DNA of 64,000 nt, taken from Alphaproteobacteria bacterium (GTDB lineage Bacteria > Pseudomonadota > Alphaproteobacteria > Micavibrionales > UBA2020). This document shows, piece by piece, positions 704 to 10,823 of this stretch. Position 1 is the stretch's first letter; every line of letters begins with the position of its first letter. Location: positions 1 to 64,000 of the forward strand of contig JAEUKT010000001.1 in the NCBI GenBank assembly GCA_016794125.1, written 5' to 3'. The translations under genes and the position numbers were made by a program. The notes beneath the pieces are model-generated. The model searched no databases, was not told where the DNA came from, and saw only the letters and a program-made list of their open reading frames with translations.

Positions 704-986
704 CGTCCAGCCTCGGCCTTTGAAACTGTTTGTTCCTCTTACGCTGCAACTGTCCATCGTTCCTTAGATGCGTCAAAGGGTGCTGCTCTACGCAGTTTCT
801 ATGCTCCTGCATTTCTGGCCGCTGTCGGCCTTCTTATTCTGCATCCTGGCATCTGTTCGCCTTAATGCCTGCAAACCCTGACGGTTTTCTCCACAAGGGT
901 TCCGCCAAGTGCAGGCAGGCGATACGAGCTGCTCAGTCCGCTCCATGAAGGCCGCGAGGTCGCGGTCAGAAAAACAGGAGCGAAAC

Positions 987-1184
987 ATGACGTACATCAT
1001 CACGACGCAGGAACTCGAACACCTGAGCGAAGCGGAACTGCACCAGAAGTTTCACGCGATACTGAACGATCTCGCCCGCCGCAATATGGCGGCGGCGAAT
1101 TGCCCGCTGGCGACGGTGACACTTGAAAACATCCGTCGCGCAATTCAGCGCAAACGGGCGCGCGCGCCTCGCCCGCGTTTCTAG
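987..1184 (+). CDS. Hypothetical 65-aa protein
   Basis: Small protein starting MTYIITTQELEHLSEAELHQ, with an excellent ribosome site (CAGGAG, six bases before the ATG). The predicted helices (LSEAELHQKFHAILNDLAR) and strongly basic tail (IQRKRARAPRPRF) suggest a small DNA- or RNA-associated protein, but no family is recognised. It is followed after about 10 bp by a perfect stem-loop terminator shared with the converging gene at 1228-2076. A longer frame starting at 909 is not supported by a ribosome site. Confidence 0.6.
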   Translation: MTYIITTQELEHLSEAELHQKFHAILNDLARRNMAAANCPLATVTLENIRRAIQRKRARAPRPRF

Positions 1185-2422: not shown

Positions 2423-2605
2423 ATGGCAGAAAAAGAACTGAAAAAATCCGATGTGCGCGAATTGGAAGATGCCCTGACTGTGGCGAAAATCGCCTGTCAC
2501 CGTTTCAAAAGCAAAGTCACTTACGCTGGCAATCTCTACGATTGCGCGGAAGACGTCATTCACGCCATAGAGCAGATGACGAAAGAAACACCTAATTTGG
2601 CTTGA
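2423..2605 (+). CDS. 60-aa SOS-controlled small protein
   Basis: First gene behind the LexA box, with AGGAG before its ATG. The protein (starts MAEKELKKSDVRELEDALTV) is charged and mostly helical, with a central basic patch (HRFKSKVTYAG) and an acidic second helix (DCAEDVIHAIEQM). Its TGA overlaps the TTG start of the polymerase gene by two bases, so the two are translationally coupled. That arrangement recalls umuD-umuC, but the protein is far too short and lacks the Ser-Lys dyad of UmuD. I infer a polymerase accessory or an SOS regulator; the family is not recognised. Confidence 0.7.
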   Translation: MAEKELKKSDVRELEDALTVAKIACHRFKSKVTYAGNLYDCAEDVIHAIEQMTKETPNLA

Positions 2606-3897
2606 AGTATGCGCCTCTTTTCAACCCCTACCAGAAACCAGCAATGCGAAAACCAACCACCATTGAGACACTCTATCTCGATTTCGACGGGTTTTTCGCA
2701 TCCGTCATGCAACAGGCTATGTCGCATTTGCGCGGCAAGCCTGTGGGCGTAATCCCGTTTGATACTTCGGCGGCTAATTCCACCATCGTTATTGCCTGTT
2801 CAAAGGAAGCCAAGGCGAAGGGCTGTAAGAACGTCATGCCCGTCAGGGAGGCGCGAAACATCTGCCCTGAACTCGTCCTCGTCACCCAACGCCCCGATTT
2901 GTACCGAAGGGCACACAACGCGCTTCTAAATGAAATTTCCTGCGAAATTCCCATCGAAACCGTGAAGTCCATTGATGAACTATGCTGCAAGCTCGATAGC
3001 AGGGACATAGCCGACCCTGCAAAACTCGCGCAGCGCATCAAAGCCCGCATAAACAAAAACATAGGCGATCAGATAACTTGCTCTATTGGCTTTGCCGCTA
3101 ACCGTATGCTGGCTAAAATCGCTGGCAAAAGAAACAAACCCAACGGCGTAACTATCTGGCGGCCGGAAGACTTGCCTGAACCGTTATTCGCCCTGTCCTT
3201 CGAGGATATTCCGGGCGTGGGAAAAAGCATGACAGCGCGGCTTGAAAAAGCTGGCATCTTTACGGTGCAAGACCTTTACAACGCGCAGTCCAAGCATCTT
3301 CGCCGCCTGTGGAACAACGTGACGGGGGAGCGCATGTGGTATGCACTGCATGGCTACGAAATTCAGGCCGAGTCTACCGAACGCGGAATGTTCGGCCATG
3401 CCCGCGTTATGCCCCCTCAACACCGCACCATCGAACATGCAAAAGACTGTTCCCGCTTGCTATTGACCAAAGCGGCGTACCGTATGCGGCGCGATAAATT
3501 CTATGCAAGTTCCCTTTCGCTATGGCTGGATATGCGCGACGGTCAATGGGGTAAATGGCAGGAACTGCCTTGTGTGCAGGATGATTTGGCCTGTCTAGAA
3601 GCCCTCGGCGCTCTTTGGAAGATCGCCGTCATGACAATCTCGCCAAAGGCAGAGATTGTTCGCGTCGGCGTGACGCTGGGTGAACTTACACCCGTGACAG
3701 AGCGGCAACTTGACCTTCTCCTGAACGACGACAAACAACGCCAGAAGAGTGAGAAACTCACGCAAGCCGTAGATCACTTAAACAGTAAATTCGGCAAGCG
3801 TGTGGCAACTTTCGGGTGGTGGGTTCCCCCTCCAGGCGGTTTTGCCGGAGGCAAGATTTCCTATACCCGTATTCCTTCAGCGGAGGATTTCTGGTGA
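2602..3897 (+). CDS. Y-family (DinB/UmuC-like) translesion DNA polymerase
   Basis: 431-aa lesion-bypass polymerase. Metal-binding residues are present: the first aspartate in YLDFDGFF (D27) and the Asp-Glu pair in SIDEL (D125, E126). The steric-gate region reads GFFASV. A helix-hairpin-helix motif (IPGVGKSMTARL) marks the thumb, followed by a little-finger domain. There is no obvious beta-clamp motif that I can point to, and the C-terminus (GGKISYTRIPSAEDFW) resembles island/plasmid ImpB-type proteins rather than chromosomal DinB. Start taken as TTG overlapping the upstream TGA; ATG at 2644 is an alternative. SOS-regulated through the box at 2343. Likely raises mutagenesis or damage tolerance after DNA damage. 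Confidence 0.9.
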   Translation: MKYAPLFNPYQKPAMRKPTTIETLYLDFDGFFASVMQQAMSHLRGKPVGVIPFDTSAANSTIVIACSKEAKAKGCKNVMPVREARNICPELVLVTQRPDLYRRAHNALLNEISCEIPIETVKSIDELCCKLDSRDIADPAKLAQRIKARINKNIGDQITCSIGFAANRMLAKIAGKRNKPNGVTIWRPEDLPEPLFALSFEDIPGVGKSMTARLEKAGIFTVQDLYNAQSKHLRRLWNNVTGERMWYALHGYEIQAESTERGMFGHARVMPPQHRTIEHAKDCSRLLLTKAAYRMRRDKFYASSLSLWLDMRDGQWGKWQELPCVQDDLACLEALGALWKIAVMTISPKAEIVRVGVTLGELTPVTERQLDLLLNDDKQRQKSEKLTQAVDHLNSKFGKRVATFGWWVPPPGGFAGGKISYTRIPSAEDFW

Positions 3898-4148
3898 GCT
3901 GGAAGGATGACATGAAGTTGAGGGATTTGGACGACAGCACATTGATAGAGGCAACATGTGTGCGTTGCCTCTATATGTGGAAGCAAAGCCCCGTTCAGCT
4001 TCTTATCAAGGTCGACCATCGGGATGTTTATATGGTTGAAGTAGAAAAAAATCTTGCCTGCCCCCGCCCTAACTGTCGCCATGTTGGAACAAGGATTGCG
4101 CTTATCCGCAACCACGACACGAGCGGTTTTGTGGGTGGGATGCCGTGA
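3894..4148 (+). CDS. Small putative zinc-ribbon protein, 84 aa
   Basis: GTG start at 3894 overlaps the polymerase stop codon (GTGA) and has GGAGG seven bases upstream, so this is the third gene of the SOS operon. The protein carries a CVRC pair (first half) and a second cysteine pair in CPRPNC, spacing that suggests a zinc ribbon. The central part alternates hydrophobic residues as in a beta-sheet (VQLLIKVDHRDVYMVEV). Function unknown; linkage suggests a role with the polymerase, for instance DNA or protein binding. Confidence 0.65.
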   Translation: MSWKDDMKLRDLDDSTLIEATCVRCLYMWKQSPVQLLIKVDHRDVYMVEVEKNLACPRPNCRHVGTRIALIRNHDTSGFVGGMP

Positions 4149-4880: not shown

Positions 4881-6713
4881 TTAGGCGATCTTTCTAGATA
4901 TTTCTCGGAACCAGTCAACAATCTCTGTATATGAATTGCGATTTTGCAATCTCGCAATAGTCATTTTTGCGGCTGCATCGTCATTCAACCAATGTTTAAG
5001 GGATCGCCTATCGAATCTTCGCTGACCTGTCAGATTGAAAATCTCAGTTTCCACATCGCAGTTGTCATCGAGAGTAAAGGCTAACGTGCCAGCATGTGCT
5101 GATAACGCTTCATTTATCGCGTCAATGTGTAGGTAGTTTTCAAGTTCGCGCTTTTGAGTCAAATAACCTCTCGACCCATCAGTACGGGCATTTACCGCGT
5201 CTTTTGCTGCCTGATACTTATAAGTGCCATCAGGTCTTTGCTGGTCTCTATCATAAATATGAATTTCAGGTATGGCGAGGTTTTTAAGATAACGTTGATT
5301 AACCCACTCTTGAAGTGTGCTTCCACCCAGAACAATAAAAGCAACTCTATGGTCATTAGCAATATCTGGAATAGTGGGGTCGGCAGCACGACACAATTTA
5401 TTAATGTGCTTCAAAAATTGAATATCATGCGGACCTTCAACGCAGACTAAGGTGCGAACCCGTTTGTCGGGGATAATGCCAAGGTCGGTAGCCACATCCT
5501 TTAAAACATCATCATCCGCCACTTTAACAATACGCTGATTAGTTGCATTGGTAGTAACATGTCTTACAGAAGCGACAGGTATCAGAGAAGCGAGTGCTGG
5601 AACGTGGGTGGTTAGCAAAACCTGGCACCCCTCAACAGAGGACAAAGTTTGCAGAGCTTCTATAATTTTCCTTTGATTATTTGGGTGTTGTGCCGTTTCA
5701 GGCTCCTCAATCGCATAAATGATATTCACCTTATGATGGGCACTTTTCAGTCTTTCTGCCTCTGCTCTAAAGAAACTAAATAAGATAAGGCGGCGAACTC
5801 CACTACCCCGCTTATTGACGGGGATATTGTCGTCGCCGCTTAAAGTGATTTTAAATAAGGTGTCCCATTTAGGGTCTGCACGAAAATTTGGAAGTAGTTG
5901 CTCCGCTAGGGTGGCATCAAAGTCAGATAATTTATCTATAGTACGATTAGCAACATCTAATGCTCGTGCTTTTACCTTGTCTTTGACAGCGGCTAACTCA
6001 TCCTGAACCTCCTCTAATGCTTGTTTAATAGCGACTTTAAGAGGGTCTTGAACTTCAAGATCTTCATCCGTGGATGGCCTATCCGCGCGAAAAAGAGCAT
6101 ATTCAGGAAGATAAGATGATAACTGTTCCCAAATAGCTTTTGCATCTTCTTTATCTAATTGAAGATCGGTTGATTGAGGATTTAAGTTAGTTTGACTTCC
6201 CCAAATGGCACGACGTAAGGCCACATTCGAGCGTGTATCAATACCCGTAGTTACTCCTAATGCATTCCCTTGAGTGCGTAACTCTGCATTTTTCTTGGCT
6301 AGAAGGTCGCTAAAACCCGTAAGAGTCGGATGATTAGCTACTGCGAATATTTTTCCCTTTTTTAGAGTAGCGTCGGAAAATTCCCAAACTTTGTGTAATT
6401 CAAGAAAGCCGTCTGCAGTTAATAAATGCTCGTCTGCGAGTGTTGTAACAGAAGTCTCATCAATAGTTAGTTGCGGCGGAAGGTCATCAAATACACAGCC
6501 AATTCGTAATTCACCAACATTACCGGCCCTCACGTTAATATCTGAATTATCAATCTTACCTAGAGGATGCTCAAAGAAAATTGCCAGAGCATCAAAAATG
6601 GAAGATTTACCAGCGTCATTTTTTCCAATGAAAGCAGTTAAAGCACCAATTGGAATACGCTGTTCGCCTTGATAGCCACGGAAATTTTTGATGATTATTT
6701 CTTTAATGAACAT
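4881..6713 (-). CDS. OLD-family ATP-dependent nuclease (AAA ATPase plus Toprim)
   Basis: 610-aa protein. N-terminal SMC/RecF-like ATPase: Walker A GKNDAGKSS (30-38), signature RGSGVRRL (302-309), Walker B IIYAIEEPE (331-339), switch histidine TTH (370). C-terminal Toprim nuclease: VEGPHD (425-430), metal-binding Asp pair in IYDRD (488, 490) and a downstream KRELENYL. Both activities therefore look intact. The best-known relative is phage P2 Old, an exclusion protein. No UvrD-type helicase partner (as in Gabija) and no reverse transcriptase are nearby, so this is a stand-alone OLD. AT-rich compared with the flanking chromosome. Probable phage-defence or DNA-maintenance role. The stop abuts yedK's stop. 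Confidence 0.9.
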   Translation of the reverse strand: MFIKEIIIKNFRGYQGEQRIPIGALTAFIGKNDAGKSSIFDALAIFFEHPLGKIDNSDINVRAGNVGELRIGCVFDDLPPQLTIDETSVTTLADEHLLTADGFLELHKVWEFSDATLKKGKIFAVANHPTLTGFSDLLAKKNAELRTQGNALGVTTGIDTRSNVALRRAIWGSQTNLNPQSTDLQLDKEDAKAIWEQLSSYLPEYALFRADRPSTDEDLEVQDPLKVAIKQALEEVQDELAAVKDKVKARALDVANRTIDKLSDFDATLAEQLLPNFRADPKWDTLFKITLSGDDNIPVNKRGSGVRRLILFSFFRAEAERLKSAHHKVNIIYAIEEPETAQHPNNQRKIIEALQTLSSVEGCQVLLTTHVPALASLIPVASVRHVTTNATNQRIVKVADDDVLKDVATDLGIIPDKRVRTLVCVEGPHDIQFLKHINKLCRAADPTIPDIANDHRVAFIVLGGSTLQEWVNQRYLKNLAIPEIHIYDRDQQRPDGTYKYQAAKDAVNARTDGSRGYLTQKRELENYLHIDAINEALSAHAGTLAFTLDDNCDVETEIFNLTGQRRFDRRSLKHWLNDDAAAKMTIARLQNRNSYTEIVDWFREISRKIA

Positions 6714-6821: not shown

Positions 6822-6860
6822 TTGACATAAGTTAATCGAAAGTGCTGATATAACAGCACT
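6822..6860 (+). promoter_or_regulatory. Promoter overlapped by a palindromic operator
   Basis: A perfect -35 TTGACA at 6822-6827 is followed, 18 bp on, by TGATAT (6846-6851) as a -10. The -10 lies inside a 7-bp inverted repeat, AGTGCTG (6841-6847) and CAGCACT (6854-6860) around ATATAA, the usual geometry of a repressor operator. The promoter points right, away from the OLD nuclease gene, into the hairpin-rich stretch 6861-7012, which has no supported gene on the plus strand. Confidence 0.5.
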
Positions 6861-7012
6861 GCGCTGGCTATGTCCTGTTCAGGACATTGATCGCCACCAT
6901 GACAATGTTCATCTGTCATTGCGCCCGTGAAACAGTCAGTCGTCCGACCTTTCCTGTTTCACGGTAGCATCGTATTCCGCGCCGACGTTCATCGGCGTTC
7001 TCGGTCTACGAT
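6861..7012 (+). ncRNA. Candidate structured RNA (four hairpins)
   Basis: Between OLD and the next gene lie four hairpins in 150 bases: ATGTCC/GGACAT (6870-6887), ATGACA/TGTCAT (6899-6919), a perfect 11-bp stem CCGTGAAACAG/CTGTTTCACGG (6925-6964) and GCCGA/TCGGC (6981-6996), the last enclosed by ATCGTA/TACGAT (6969-7012). Three loops contain GTTCA. No protein frame fits, and a good promoter lies directly upstream. I do not recognise a known RNA family. No U-tract terminator is evident at the 3' end. It could instead be a DNA-level protein-binding array. Confidence 0.4.
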
Positions 7013-7023
7013 TTCAGGAAGGC

Positions 7024-7761
7024 TTAATTGCAGACTTGATTGGAAATTTCAGTATCATTTTTATTGATAATTAAATTTTTGTGACACACAGGGTCTTCAC
7101 ACAGAACAAAGTCCTCTACTACATAAGAGTAATCATGATTTTTAAATGTATAATGTCCGTTACCGCCATTACCATCTGGTAAGTAATCCCCCACAAGGTT
7201 CAATTCTGGTTTTTCTGTAAGGCTGTCTCCCTTTTTCCAGACAAAGTAGCGTATTACGTCACCATGTCTTTGAACCCTAATACGTTTTGATTTCGTCTCA
7301 CAAGTGAGCAGAAGATTTGTATAACCTCTAGCTTCTGAATTGATAGACTGCCCTTCTTTTTCTTTCGCTTCCTCGAAGATTTTTTCAAACGTACTAGTGT
7401 TATATTGAATCCTATAAACCTTTGCGTCTTTAAACCAAACTAAACCATTCACTAGCTGCACACCGCGCCAGCCAATTTGTTCCGGCTTGGCGGCCAAAAC
7501 CTCATTAGTGAATTTTGCATCGAAAAACTCATCCCAGTGCGTGACAAACTCTTCGGGGGTTTTGATGGGCGTCAACGGATAGTCACGCTCTAAAGGATAG
7601 TAGATCAGATTAGCGACTGCCTTTTTATCGTCGTTTTTTAAAGCCTGTTGAAACTTAATTGCTGCGTCTTCATCGGCTTTGAACTCGACAGAAATCTGTT
7701 GAGCGAAAGCGGAGGATGTAAGAAAGAAAAATACTGAACACAGGACAAGAAAAAAGCGCAT
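7024..7761 (-). CDS. Secreted hypothetical protein, 245 aa
   Basis: Starts with a clear signal peptide (basic residue, a long Phe/Leu/Val core, then SSAFA before QQ), so it is exported. The mature part begins with a helical segment and has WRGVQLVNGLVWF, a pattern common to small periplasmic proteins of unknown function. Cysteines near the C-terminus (LCEDPVC) may form a disulfide. The frame extends upstream into tRNA-Leu, so I use the ATG at 7761, although no strong ribosome site precedes it. AT-rich like OLD, suggesting transfer. Function unknown. Confidence 0.6.
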   Translation of the reverse strand: MRFFLVLCSVFFFLTSSAFAQQISVEFKADEDAAIKFQQALKNDDKKAVANLIYYPLERDYPLTPIKTPEEFVTHWDEFFDAKFTNEVLAAKPEQIGWRGVQLVNGLVWFKDAKVYRIQYNTSTFEKIFEEAKEKEGQSINSEARGYTNLLLTCETKSKRIRVQRHGDVIRYFVWKKGDSLTEKPELNLVGDYLPDGNGGNGHYTFKNHDYSYVVEDFVLCEDPVCHKNLIINKNDTEISNQVCN

Positions 7762-7799: not shown

Positions 7800-7886
7800 T
7801 GGTGCCTCTGGTCGGACTCGAACCAACACGCCATTGCTGACTACGCATTTTGAGTGCGTCGCGTCTACCAATTTCGCCACAGAGGC
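7800..7886 (-). tRNA. tRNA-Leu (anticodon CAA)
   Basis: Complete 87-nt leucine tRNA with encoded CCA. Acceptor strands GCCTCTG and CAGAGGC pair perfectly. The anticodon stem ACGCA/TGCGT encloses loop CTCAAAA, giving anticodon CAA (reads UUG). There is a long variable arm and a GGTTCGAGTCC T-arm. A TATAAT box (complement of 7903-7908) lies upstream. It is the only intact member of three copies of its 5' half in this region, and forms the left boundary of the integrase array. Confidence 0.95.
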
Positions 7887-7902: not shown

Positions 7903-7908
7903 ATTATA
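7903..7908 (-). promoter_or_regulatory. -10 element of tRNA-Leu
   Basis: A perfect TATAAT on the minus strand, ending 16 bases before the tRNA 5' end. A clear -35 is not seen. It lies on the integrase side of the tRNA, so the promoter used by the intact tRNA may have been brought in with the element. Confidence 0.5.
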
Positions 7909-7948
7909 CGGCGGCTTGAAGCAACTATAAAAAAGCCTTTTAAAATGC

Positions 7949-9268
7949 CTATTTAGAAGGTTTTTTTGTCTTGGCTTTAGTGCCTTTCTTGTTTTCGCTC
8001 TTTGCCCTCTTCTTTTCTTTCGGTCTAGGCTTCATCACGTTCACGGCTGCGGTATCAATGGCGTTAGCCAGATGCCGCGCATAGTACTTCTCGATCATTT
8101 CGACACTAGTACGGCAGTTTTTAGCTACCTGATAAATGTCTGCCCCCTCCAGCAAGCGAAGGCAGATATAAGTGTGGCGCAAGCTGTAGCAAGTTCTCAT
8201 GTGACCATCACGGTCAAACTTCATATTTAGTTCATCCTCCCCGAGAACTTGGTTCATCATTTCGCGGGGAGTCTTACCAAAGATTTTCTGATTAGGCTGT
8301 AGTTTCTTGCGGTCGCGTATGCGTTCAAAGGGGAATACGGCTCCTGGCATTGATTTGCAGTAGCCCACGCCACGCTTTCCGCGCACTTCGATTTCAAGGA
8401 TGGTTTCTTTTGTATCAGCATCCTTGACGATTTTAACGTCGCGCAATTCAAGGCGCGCGGATTCATCAGGGCGTAAGCCTGTATTTCCCATGAACAGAAC
8501 ATAGTCATGGAAATTCTCACAAACATCTTTCCAACGAGGATTAGGCGGGTTATCGGCTCGTTCCCGCGTGTGTTCATATAACTTCTGGTATTCTTCGGGG
8601 CTAAACCATGCCCTATGCTCTATTTTGCCGGATTGCTTATAGGGAGCCGACATATCCGGCACAGCGTCAATCCAGCCCTTGCGGTTGGCTAGTTTCAGCA
8701 GTTGACGCAAGGTTACTATCTCGCCATGCAGCGTAGCGCGGGCGGGTTTCTTCGGTTTCCCGTCCTTGCCTATACGGGAGGTCTGACGGTGGGCGCGATA
8801 CTCCTGCACCATTCCGGCGGAAACGTCGGATATGGGGGTATCGCCAAAGAACGGTAATAGGTGGACTTTGATTTGGTCTTGCTTGGAGTCAACATAGGCT
8901 TCGCTGCGCTCCCCAAGGGTGATAGCTTCATACTCTTTCTTGAATATCTCCGTGACATGACGGAACGTAACCCCGTTTGAGGGTTTACGGCGGCGGCGAT
9001 CTTCGGGCTGGGTGTTGGCGGGGGAAGCTACCTCGACAAGGCCATCCAGCAGGAGGGAAGTACCACCACGACGCTTGCGGCGGGATTCAACGTATAATTC
9101 CATATACCAATCCTTCGCAAAGGCTTTGGCATGAGCGAAGTTTTCTTCTTTCGTGGATTGTCTGTGATTACGTCCGTTGAAAAAGGCGGCACAATGCCAA
9201 TACTTCGAGTTTTCACGTTTGTATATGTGAAGTCGGCCATCCATCAATTTGTAGTTTTCGGTGTCCAT
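7949..9268 (-). CDS. int: Tyrosine-type site-specific integrase 1
   Basis: 439-aa phage-type integrase. Order: N-terminal arm-binding region (LHIYKRENSKYWHC), core-binding domain, catalytic domain. Visible catalytic residues are the first Arg in NTGLRPDE, Arg in YSLRHTY, and the nucleophilic Tyr in IEKYYARH. As in many relatives with a CRTSVEMIE box, the first box-II His is replaced by Tyr. The ATG at 9268 is chosen over 9295 because GGGGGT precedes it and because it aligns with the start of integrase 2. A basic insert (about residues 60-100, RRKRRGG to EDRRRRK) and a Lys-rich tail are absent from integrase 2. The gene is 110 bp downstream of a truncated tRNA-Leu copy, its presumed attachment site. 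Confidence 0.93.
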   Translation of the reverse strand: MDTENYKLMDGRLHIYKRENSKYWHCAAFFNGRNHRQSTKEENFAHAKAFAKDWYMELYVESRRKRRGGTSLLLDGLVEVASPANTQPEDRRRRKPSNGVTFRHVTEIFKKEYEAITLGERSEAYVDSKQDQIKVHLLPFFGDTPISDVSAGMVQEYRAHRQTSRIGKDGKPKKPARATLHGEIVTLRQLLKLANRKGWIDAVPDMSAPYKQSGKIEHRAWFSPEEYQKLYEHTRERADNPPNPRWKDVCENFHDYVLFMGNTGLRPDESARLELRDVKIVKDADTKETILEIEVRGKRGVGYCKSMPGAVFPFERIRDRKKLQPNQKIFGKTPREMMNQVLGEDELNMKFDRDGHMRTCYSLRHTYICLRLLEGADIYQVAKNCRTSVEMIEKYYARHLANAIDTAAVNVMKPRPKEKKRAKSENKKGTKAKTKKPSK

Positions 9269-9373
9269 GCCTACCCCCAAAACTGTGTAAGACATGTGTA
9301 ACTTTATCTGGTAATGGATAGAATGTCAACTATTTGTTTTTACACGTGTTTTTTCTAGTTTTGGTATATATAA

Positions 9374-9417
9374 CTAGATTTTGAGTGCGGCGCGTCTACC
9401 AATTTCACCACAGGGGC
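9374..9417 (-). repeat. Truncated tRNA-Leu 5' half (hybrid attachment site)
   Basis: Reading on the minus strand, 9417 to 9379 repeats the first 39 bases of tRNA-Leu(CAA) (acceptor strand GCCCCTG, D-arm, anticodon loop CTCAAAA) with only three differences from the intact gene at 7886. The anticodon stem is broken: 5' strand CCGCA faces TCTAG. TCTAG would instead pair with the CTAGA of the outer copy at 10,792-10,796. This is what crossover inside the shared CTCAAAA core would leave. A TATATT box (complement of 9427-9432) is kept upstream. Confidence 0.8.
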
Positions 9418-9474
9418 ATGGTGCAAAATATAACCCCAACGGGCTGATTTTGCCAGCTTAAATTAATCCTTATT

Positions 9475-10656
9475 TTACTTGGGTTTCTTCGTCTTCTTTG
9501 CCCGTTTCGGCTTCTCTTTTCGGACGTTGATAGCCGAAGCGTCCAAGGTGTTCTTGATGTGCGAGGCGTAGAATTTCTCGATCATCTCGACGCTGGTGCG
9601 GCAGTTCTTGGCGACCTGATAAATGTCCGCCCCTTCCATCAGGCGCATGCAGATATAGGTGTGACGGAGGCTGTAGGCAGTGCGTCTTTGCCCGTCCCTG
9701 TCGAATTTGAGTTCAAGTTCGTCAAGAATATTGTTCAACAGTTCACGCTGGGGCTTCCCGAAAACTATTCCGTTCGGCTTTTCGGCAAGCTGCTTCCTTT
9801 TAACCGTCCGGTTAAAAGGAAGGACAGCCCCAGGCATACTTTTGCAATAGCCGACTCCTCGTTTCCCTCGGACTTCGATTACGAGGATGCGTTCGCCCGT
9901 TGCTTCGTCGGTTTCGACGGCAACGTCTCGTAATTCGAGTACAGCCGCTTCGTCCGGCCGTAGTCCTGTATTGACCATGAAAAGTATGTAGTCGTGGAAG
10001 TTTTCACATTCTTCTTTCCAACGATTATTCAGCGGCTTTGATGCACGCTCCCGCGTAGCTTCATATAATTTCTTGTATTCCTCGGGGGAAAACCAAGCGC
10101 GGTGTGCCACCTTCCCCGCCGTTTTGTAGGGCATGGACAGGTCTGGCACATGGTCTATCCATCCGTGCCGCTGCGCGGTTTTAAGGACTTGCCGGATAGC
10201 GACAATCTCTTGGTGCATGGTGCTACGCGACGGGGGCTTGCCCGTCTTGCAGTTCTTCGATCTCCATATACGGTAGTCCTGAATTGTACCTGCGGTGATT
10301 TCTGACAAATACTTCTCCCCCAGAAAGGGAAGGATGATGGCTTTCAGCTTTTGGTCGTATTGGGCAACCCATGTCTCCGACCGCTGGCCGTGGGTGATGA
10401 CGGGGTATTCATCTAGGAACTTCTCGGCTGCTGCCTGAAACGTCTTGCCGCTATTCAGGATACCAGCGCGGGCTTTGCCGCGCAGTTCCAGATACCAATC
10501 TTCTGCAAAATCCTTGGCTAGGGCGATGCTGTCGCTCTTGGTGGAGACACGCCACTGGCGACCGCCGACGGAGGCGGCACATTGCCAATAGCTGCTCCGT
10601 TCGCGTCGATACACGCTAACAAGACCGCCGAGGATTTGGTGTGTTTCTGTAACCAT
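9475..10656 (-). CDS. int: Tyrosine-type site-specific integrase 2
   Basis: 393-aa integrase clearly related to integrase 1 along its whole length (shared blocks such as HRAWFSPEEY, RGKRGVGYCKSMPGAV, GADIYQVAKNCRTSVEMIE). Catalytic residues: R233 (TGLRPDE), R331 (YSLRHTY), Y363 (KFYASH). GGAG lies five bases before the ATG. It lacks the basic insert present in integrase 1. Its gene contains a perfect 13-bp inverted repeat at 9793-9822 that the paralogue does not have. It is bounded by truncated tRNA-Leu copies on both sides. No excisionase gene is seen. Confidence 0.93.
   Translation of the reverse strand: MVTETHQILGGLVSVYRRERSSYWQCAASVGGRQWRVSTKSDSIALAKDFAEDWYLELRGKARAGILNSGKTFQAAAEKFLDEYPVITHGQRSETWVAQYDQKLKAIILPFLGEKYLSEITAGTIQDYRIWRSKNCKTGKPPSRSTMHQEIVAIRQVLKTAQRHGWIDHVPDLSMPYKTAGKVAHRAWFSPEEYKKLYEATRERASKPLNNRWKEECENFHDYILFMVNTGLRPDEAAVLELRDVAVETDEATGERILVIEVRGKRGVGYCKSMPGAVLPFNRTVKRKQLAEKPNGIVFGKPQRELLNNILDELELKFDRDGQRRTAYSLRHTYICMRLMEGADIYQVAKNCRTSVEMIEKFYASHIKNTLDASAINVRKEKPKRAKKTKKPK
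9793..9822. repeat. Perfect 13-bp inverted repeat inside integrase 2
   Basis: CTTCCTTTTAACC at 9793-9805 and its exact complement at 9810-9822, separated by the 4-base loop GTCC. It encodes part of the sequence AVLPFNRTVKRKQL between catalytic boxes. The equivalent stretch of integrase 1 has no such symmetry. Confidence 0.75.
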
Positions 10657-10780: not shown

Positions 10781-10823
10781 TAGATTTTGAGTCTAGCGCG
10801 TCTGCCAGTTCCGCCACAGGGGC
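10781..10823 (-). repeat. Truncated tRNA-Leu 5' half (outer junction, probable original locus)
   Basis: Minus-strand 10,823 to 10,781 gives GCCCCTG, a D-arm and an anticodon arm CTAGA-CTCAAAA-TCTA, after which similarity to a tRNA stops. It diverges more from the intact tRNA than the middle copy does. Because the sequence to its right is ordinary chromosome, I infer that this is the 5' half of the original host tRNA-Leu(CAA), now separated from its 3' half. A TATATT box (complement of 10,832-10,837) remains upstream. Confidence 0.75.

Follow-up and report, generated by a model that had tools for sequence, protein, structure and literature searches.

The stretch of DNA analysed here (64,000 nucleotides, hereafter the window) opens contig C1 of a genome of 3.16 Mb and contains an array of hairpins that adjoins a gene for an OLD-family ATPase. 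A sequence-only reading had proposed this array as a possible new structured RNA, transcribed from its own regulated promoter on the plus strand, that might restrain or guide the OLD nuclease or sense phage. The locus raises the question of what the array is, on which strand it acts and with which genes it belongs.

A conserved and covarying four-hairpin element

The array comprises the following features:

6858–7013, minus strand: structured element with hairpins H1, H2, H3 and H4 (model R1, 153 positions; 151 bits), in which a GCGC/GCGC stem encloses H3 and H4
6980–6997, minus strand: H1, loop GAAC, inside an outer stem 7002–7012 / 6969–6979 (ATCGTA/TACGAT)
6925–6964, minus strand: H2, 11-bp stem, with an inner hairpin at 6938–6949, loop GGAC
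6899–6919, minus strand: H3, loop GAAC, 1 base shorter than in the other copies
6870–6887, minus strand: H4, loop GAAC
6842–6859, minus strand: short hairpin closing the 3' side of the element, with TTTCGATT (5 T in 8) after it

The four hairpins fold as the sequence-only reading had drawn them, including the perfect 11-bp stem, which is the outer stem of H2, and the ATCGTA/TACGAT stem around H1. Folding energy of the window element was −66.4 kcal/mol (z −5.7) on the minus strand and −58.1 kcal/mol (z −4.3) on the plus strand, and none of 200 shuffles matched it on either strand.

Seven full copies, all folding alike, were found in five genomes of one Micavibrio-like family (the window, L002/L015/L063, L003/L020/L065, L004/L013/L067, L005/L016/L069, L006/L021/L064 and L007/L014/L066), together with two truncated copies (L008/L022/L068 and L023/L070). 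A DNA search of 94 genomes, comprising the window's own and its relatives, gave element matches in 5, and an order-wide model search gave 5 of 142 genomes at E ≤ 0.001. That search missed a sixth genome, G010, in which scanning of the integrase locus revealed an eighth, divergent copy (L039, 44 bits). At L024, H1 is kept 3' of a tRNA-Leu(TAG). Weaker model matches (L010, L011, L012, L017, L018, L019 and L025; 16 to 23 bits) had neither a nearby tRNA nor such a hairpin array and were dropped as chance. Scanning the genome contigs by pattern found no copies beyond those already known, two IUPAC patterns had 0 matches in viral contigs, and blastn of 401 bases against plasmid and phage records returned only short chance matches. 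At L067, an opposite-strand ORF (9733–10065) ends within the element and has a relative at L069.

Identity among the full copies ranges from 66 to 94%, and 96.2% of cells pair in their alignment. Both sides had changed in 15 of the 42 pairs, a number reached by 0 of 500 shuffles (mean 6.1), and shifting the partners 1 to 3 columns along lowered the paired cells to 25–46%. The stems thus covary in homologous loci, as a conserved structured RNA had been expected to do. The absence of a protein frame was likewise borne out, since single-base gaps separate the copies and no coding frame is conserved. A scan against Rfam 15 gave nothing relevant over the element, with only the tRNA reaching the gathering threshold. 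These results indicated that the hairpin array is genuine and forms a structured element not described before. A dispersed REP-like repeat without function would suit the one to three copies seen in some genomes, but compensatory changes, a fixed site 3' of a tRNA in all eight full or divergent copies and a single strong copy in the window genome make this explanation highly improbable.

Read on the minus strand, the seven-copy alignment holds 13 G-U cells (10 pair positions) against 2 A-C cells (1 position), a bias partly built in, since the prediction permitted G-U pairs and was made on copies related to one another. This asymmetry favours a minus-strand RNA or minus-strand single-stranded DNA, in which G-T pairs would fit the bias too, over a double-stranded feature, and it places the element on the strand opposite to the one first proposed. 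The plus-strand promoter did not hold up either: a TTGACA is present at 6822, but no hexamer pair spaced by 16–18 with 9 of 12 matches accompanies it. What had been described as a 7-bp palindromic operator is the minus-strand hairpin at 6842–6859, which with the following TTTCGATT may form a weak terminator and was not seen in the other copies of the element. On the hexamer scan, this hairpin and the G-U strand bias together, we reject the plus-strand promoter and operator.

The GTTCA shared by three hairpin loops on the plus strand was confirmed and reads GAAC on the minus strand, the remaining loop being GGAC. Across the copies, read from the alignment and from individual loci, some by eye, GNAC occupies 30 of 35 loops (H1 8/9, H2 6/7, H3 7/9, H4 9/10); the others are GACC, AAAC, ATAC and, twice, GAGC, and the final C is kept in 35/35. 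L039 has different stem sequences on the same plan without H2, and its loops, read by eye, are GAAC, GGAC and GTAC. GAAC loops are not enriched outside the element in these sequences, which excludes GNAC as a loop generally favoured by these genomes. Retention of GNAC while the stems change suggests a recognised motif and points to a loop-binding partner. The protein-titrating RNAs of the CsrB/RsmZ type similarly repeat one loop motif over several hairpins, although that motif is GGA rather than GNAC.

Islands that carry a whole replacement tRNA

The element of the window lies within an island marked by these features:

909–1184, plus strand: ORF, conserved over about 65 aa, with counterparts in all nine other islands compared
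7024–7761, minus strand: 245-aa ORF between tRNA and element, with its stop codon 11 bases before the element
7800–7886, minus strand: complete, island-borne replacement tRNA-Leu(CAA)
7903–7931, minus strand: promoter-like site TTTATA-17-TATAAT immediately before the tRNA, the best of the region (10 of 12)
7949–9295, minus strand: tyrosine integrase 1
9378–9418, minus strand: tRNA-Leu 5' half, attachment-site remnant
9475–10656, minus strand: tyrosine integrase 2, in tandem
10784–10823, minus strand: chromosomal tRNA-Leu 5' half, the left end of the island, with the 3' half on contig C3

Neither the 245-aa ORF, whose start resembles a signal peptide by eye, nor the ORF at 909–1184 had a match in Pfam or NCBIfam. 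Both of the tandem integrases (7949–10656) have a tRNA-Leu 5' half ahead of them, which suggests that one insertion followed another at this tRNA.

In all seven full copies and L039, the element lies 3' of a complete tRNA-Leu(CAA), tRNA-Ser(CGA) or tRNA-Leu(TAG); a tyrosine integrase immediately precedes the tRNA, and all three share one strand. A tRNA 5' half lies upstream of the integrase at the seven loci of full copies, and the 3' half was located 19 to 27 kb further on in G002:C6, G012:C21 and G007:C8. When joined, the halves made up an intact tRNA (G002:C6 and G012:C21 read by ARAGORN, G007:C8 by eye), from which the complete tRNA inside the island differs in the anticodon stem. The island therefore splits the chromosomal tRNA gene in the anticodon loop and brings a whole substitute. 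Matching 3' halves for the window island lie on contig C3 (L124), from which we infer that C1 and C3 adjoin, and no Leu-CAA other than its tRNA was found in the window genome, in which ARAGORN read 41 of 42 tRNA matches.

Both ends were found for three islands on single contigs, the window island probably spanning two. Between these ends lie a relaxase (PF03432, over the cut-off) and a MobC/NikA-like protein (below the cut-off), and ArdC and ArdA occur in several islands; the window contig stops before its own relaxase, and C3 carries a relaxase near its start. With integrase, attachment halves, relaxase and accessory protein all present, these islands are integrative mobilizable elements, and they probably move through the relaxase.

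As described in the accessible text of PMC4383910, islands of the Islander class share the tyrosine integrase, the anticodon-loop crossover, a displaced tRNA fragment and tandem arrays, but their attP fragment restores the tRNA gene, whereas here the chromosomal tRNA stays split in two and the island has a complete tRNA gene of its own. According to the portion of a review available to us (PMC8371274), intact genes are reconstituted and the bacterial ones almost always keep their promoter. The islands described here substitute for a disrupted tRNA gene instead of restoring it, and our literature searches did not find islands with a whole replacement tRNA in this exact layout. Tycheposons are possible relatives. 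The accessible part of their account in PMC10872708 describes no whole-tRNA replacement.

The constant presence of an integrase raises the possibility that the hairpins act as palindromic sites in double-stranded DNA, either integrase arm sites or the operators of a regulator. The nine full or truncated copies found first, and L039, all lie in islands with such an integrase. The crossover site is about 1.5 kb or more away, however, the compensatory changes and the replaced stem sequence of L039 fit conserved protein sites poorly, and G-U cells far outnumber A-C cells, so that we regard this explanation as very unlikely.

The partners of the element

The neighbour from which the original proposal started is the following gene:

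4881–6713, minus strand: OLD-family ATPase (PF13175), with AriA as its best PADLOC profile, followed by Old and GajA

The element lies 144 bases upstream of the OLD start on the same strand, and the two point the same way rather than diverging as had been supposed. OLD was present in 1 of 9 islands. Within the order, 2 of 142 genomes carry the OLD ATPase, and only 1 has it together with the element. By tblastn, OLD is covered to 80% or more in 254 plasmid records, while plasmid and phage records contain no real match to the element; OLD is thus routinely found without this stretch. Elsewhere the element has other neighbours, namely an HTH gene (L063) or aquaporin-type and phosphatase-type genes (L064/L065), the latter apparently arsenate-reductase-like. 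Since the other islands lack OLD and it is common on plasmids without the element, we consider it variable cargo. A plus-strand RNA that restrains or guides OLD would account for their adjacency in this one island, yet the strand is reversed and each partner occurs without the other, leaving this explanation with very little probability. As a general toxin-antitoxin or defence pair it is refuted; a local effect on OLD expression, with the element as part of the leader, is possible.

At 2602–4148 of the window, a Y-family polymerase gene and the following 110-aa ORF have counterparts (85% and 78%, respectively) in the tRNA-Leu island of G002:C4, which the neighbouring OLD and SRAP genes do not.

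The recurring partner of the element is instead the integrase with its replacement tRNA. Inside the family, 10 distinct integrase loci are directly followed by a Leu or Ser tRNA and 8 of these carry the element (L073/L035 and L037 lack it); the other 14 integrase loci have no full element, and two have a truncated one. The association with the integrase-to-tRNA layout had a Fisher p of 6e-5, with loci treated as independent and the grouping picked after looking. This count leaves aside four loci at contig ends (L041, L042, L047, L052), the window's integrase 2 and six distant ones (L043–L046, L053, L059), for which identity is about 30%.

Loci in which an integrase precedes a complete tRNA-Leu(CAA) or tRNA-Ser(CGA/TGA) are widespread in the order, and integrases of this family may generally replace the tRNA whole. 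Of 45 integrase places outside the Micavibrio-like family, 40 were examined and 18 had the integrase-to-Leu/Ser-tRNA layout (L168–L171, L173, L174, L176–L181, L183, L184, L186, L188, L189 and L204), none with the element. Since all 18 loci outside and 2 of 10 inside the family lack it, the tRNA module does not need the element, and a requirement for it in every integrase-to-tRNA island is excluded. The element is an addition in one family, where it is tied to the tRNA-replacing module.

These distributions also bear on a role as single-stranded DNA during relaxase transfer, for example as a lagging-strand start or a strand-specific protein site. We kept this explanation in view, given the probable relaxase-driven movement of the islands and a strand bias that agrees with it. 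They carry a MobA/VirD2-type relaxase and a MobC/NikA-like protein, with ArdC or ArdA in several, the minus strand folds well as DNA (z −6.1), G-T pairs would yield the same bias, and GNAC fits the d(GNAB) class of stable DNA tetraloops. Nevertheless, the element is only truncated in two islands whose relaxase and MobC frames are full length, and full copies follow the tRNA-replacing integrase (8/10 against 0/14 at the family's other integrase loci) rather than the relaxase. A single-stranded DNA role is thus unlikely, and we consider the element, a conserved noncoding structure of about 150 nt belonging to tRNA-replacing integrative mobilizable islands, most likely to be an RNA.

A candidate small RNA, proposed to be made with the replacement tRNA

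The gap between the tRNA CCA and the element is 9 to 28 nt in L064–L067 and L069, and in L039 the element begins at the tRNA end. With a gap of at most 28 nt on the same strand in 6 of 8 copies, a promoter of the element's own is unlikely there. An ORF intervenes in the other two (window and L063), ending 11 and 7 bases before the element, respectively. A strong terminator-like hairpin follows the element in L039, so that tRNA and element appear to form one unit at that locus. The simplest reading is a single unit of tRNA, optional gene and element.

Building on this arrangement, we favour, at slightly less than an even chance, a model in which a minus-strand transcript would start at the promoter of the island's replacement tRNA and run through the tRNA and the optional cargo gene into the element as its 3' part. 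A cut behind the tRNA during 3' maturation would free the element, which would be kept as a stable small RNA, and a partner would bind its repeated GNAC loops, plausibly tuning island genes or host small RNAs. The loci with the tRNA module but no element, and the two relaxase islands that retain just a truncated copy, weigh against this model. Should transcription of the RNA begin at the tRNA promoter, a mobile element would couple its own regulation to an always-on host function. A more far-reaching and rather doubtful version holds that the host's only copy of the tRNA makes the island indispensable, that its constant transcription yields the four-hairpin RNA, and that the GNAC loops capture one protein or RNA deciding between staying integrated and leaving.

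A precedent for part of this model may be leuZ-3'ETS of enterobacteria (E. coli/Salmonella), a spacer freed from a tRNA-Leu precursor, for which the available text of PMC5222698 describes an RNase E cut 15 nt past the mature tRNA and activity as an sRNA sponge. A position directly 3' of a tRNA, at a spacing of about 15 nt, would be comparable, but the element here is about 150 nt long with four covarying hairpins, sits on a mobile island and follows both Leu and Ser tRNAs. GOLLD and ROOL, presented in the accessible part of PMC12286853 as structured RNAs of unknown function on mobile DNA, often near tRNAs, resemble it in those respects; the element is far smaller, has no Rfam match and occurs on mobilizable islands rather than phages. 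We found no description of this RNA, or of whole-tRNA replacement with an RNA, in the literature covered, which lies mostly outside subscription papers. The element is a well-supported addition to the few structured elements known to accompany tRNA genes on mobile DNA, and its loop motif can be tested.

The same position would also be expected of a 3'-end or insulator structure of the replacement-tRNA unit that has no role in trans. The element follows the tRNA unit in 8/8 copies, convergent genes abut several of them, and cargo ORFs lie between tRNA and element in two islands. Most copies nevertheless have no T-run after the main structure, terminator-like sites occur at the element end or downstream in only 3 of 8, L039 has a separate terminator, and four hairpins with conserved loops are not needed for a plain terminator. 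We therefore judge a purely structural role improbable. At L181, a terminator-like hairpin (AAAAAACCTGAACAGGTTTTT) lies about 60 bases after a tRNA-Ser(TGA), with a CCTGAACAGG core as in H4.
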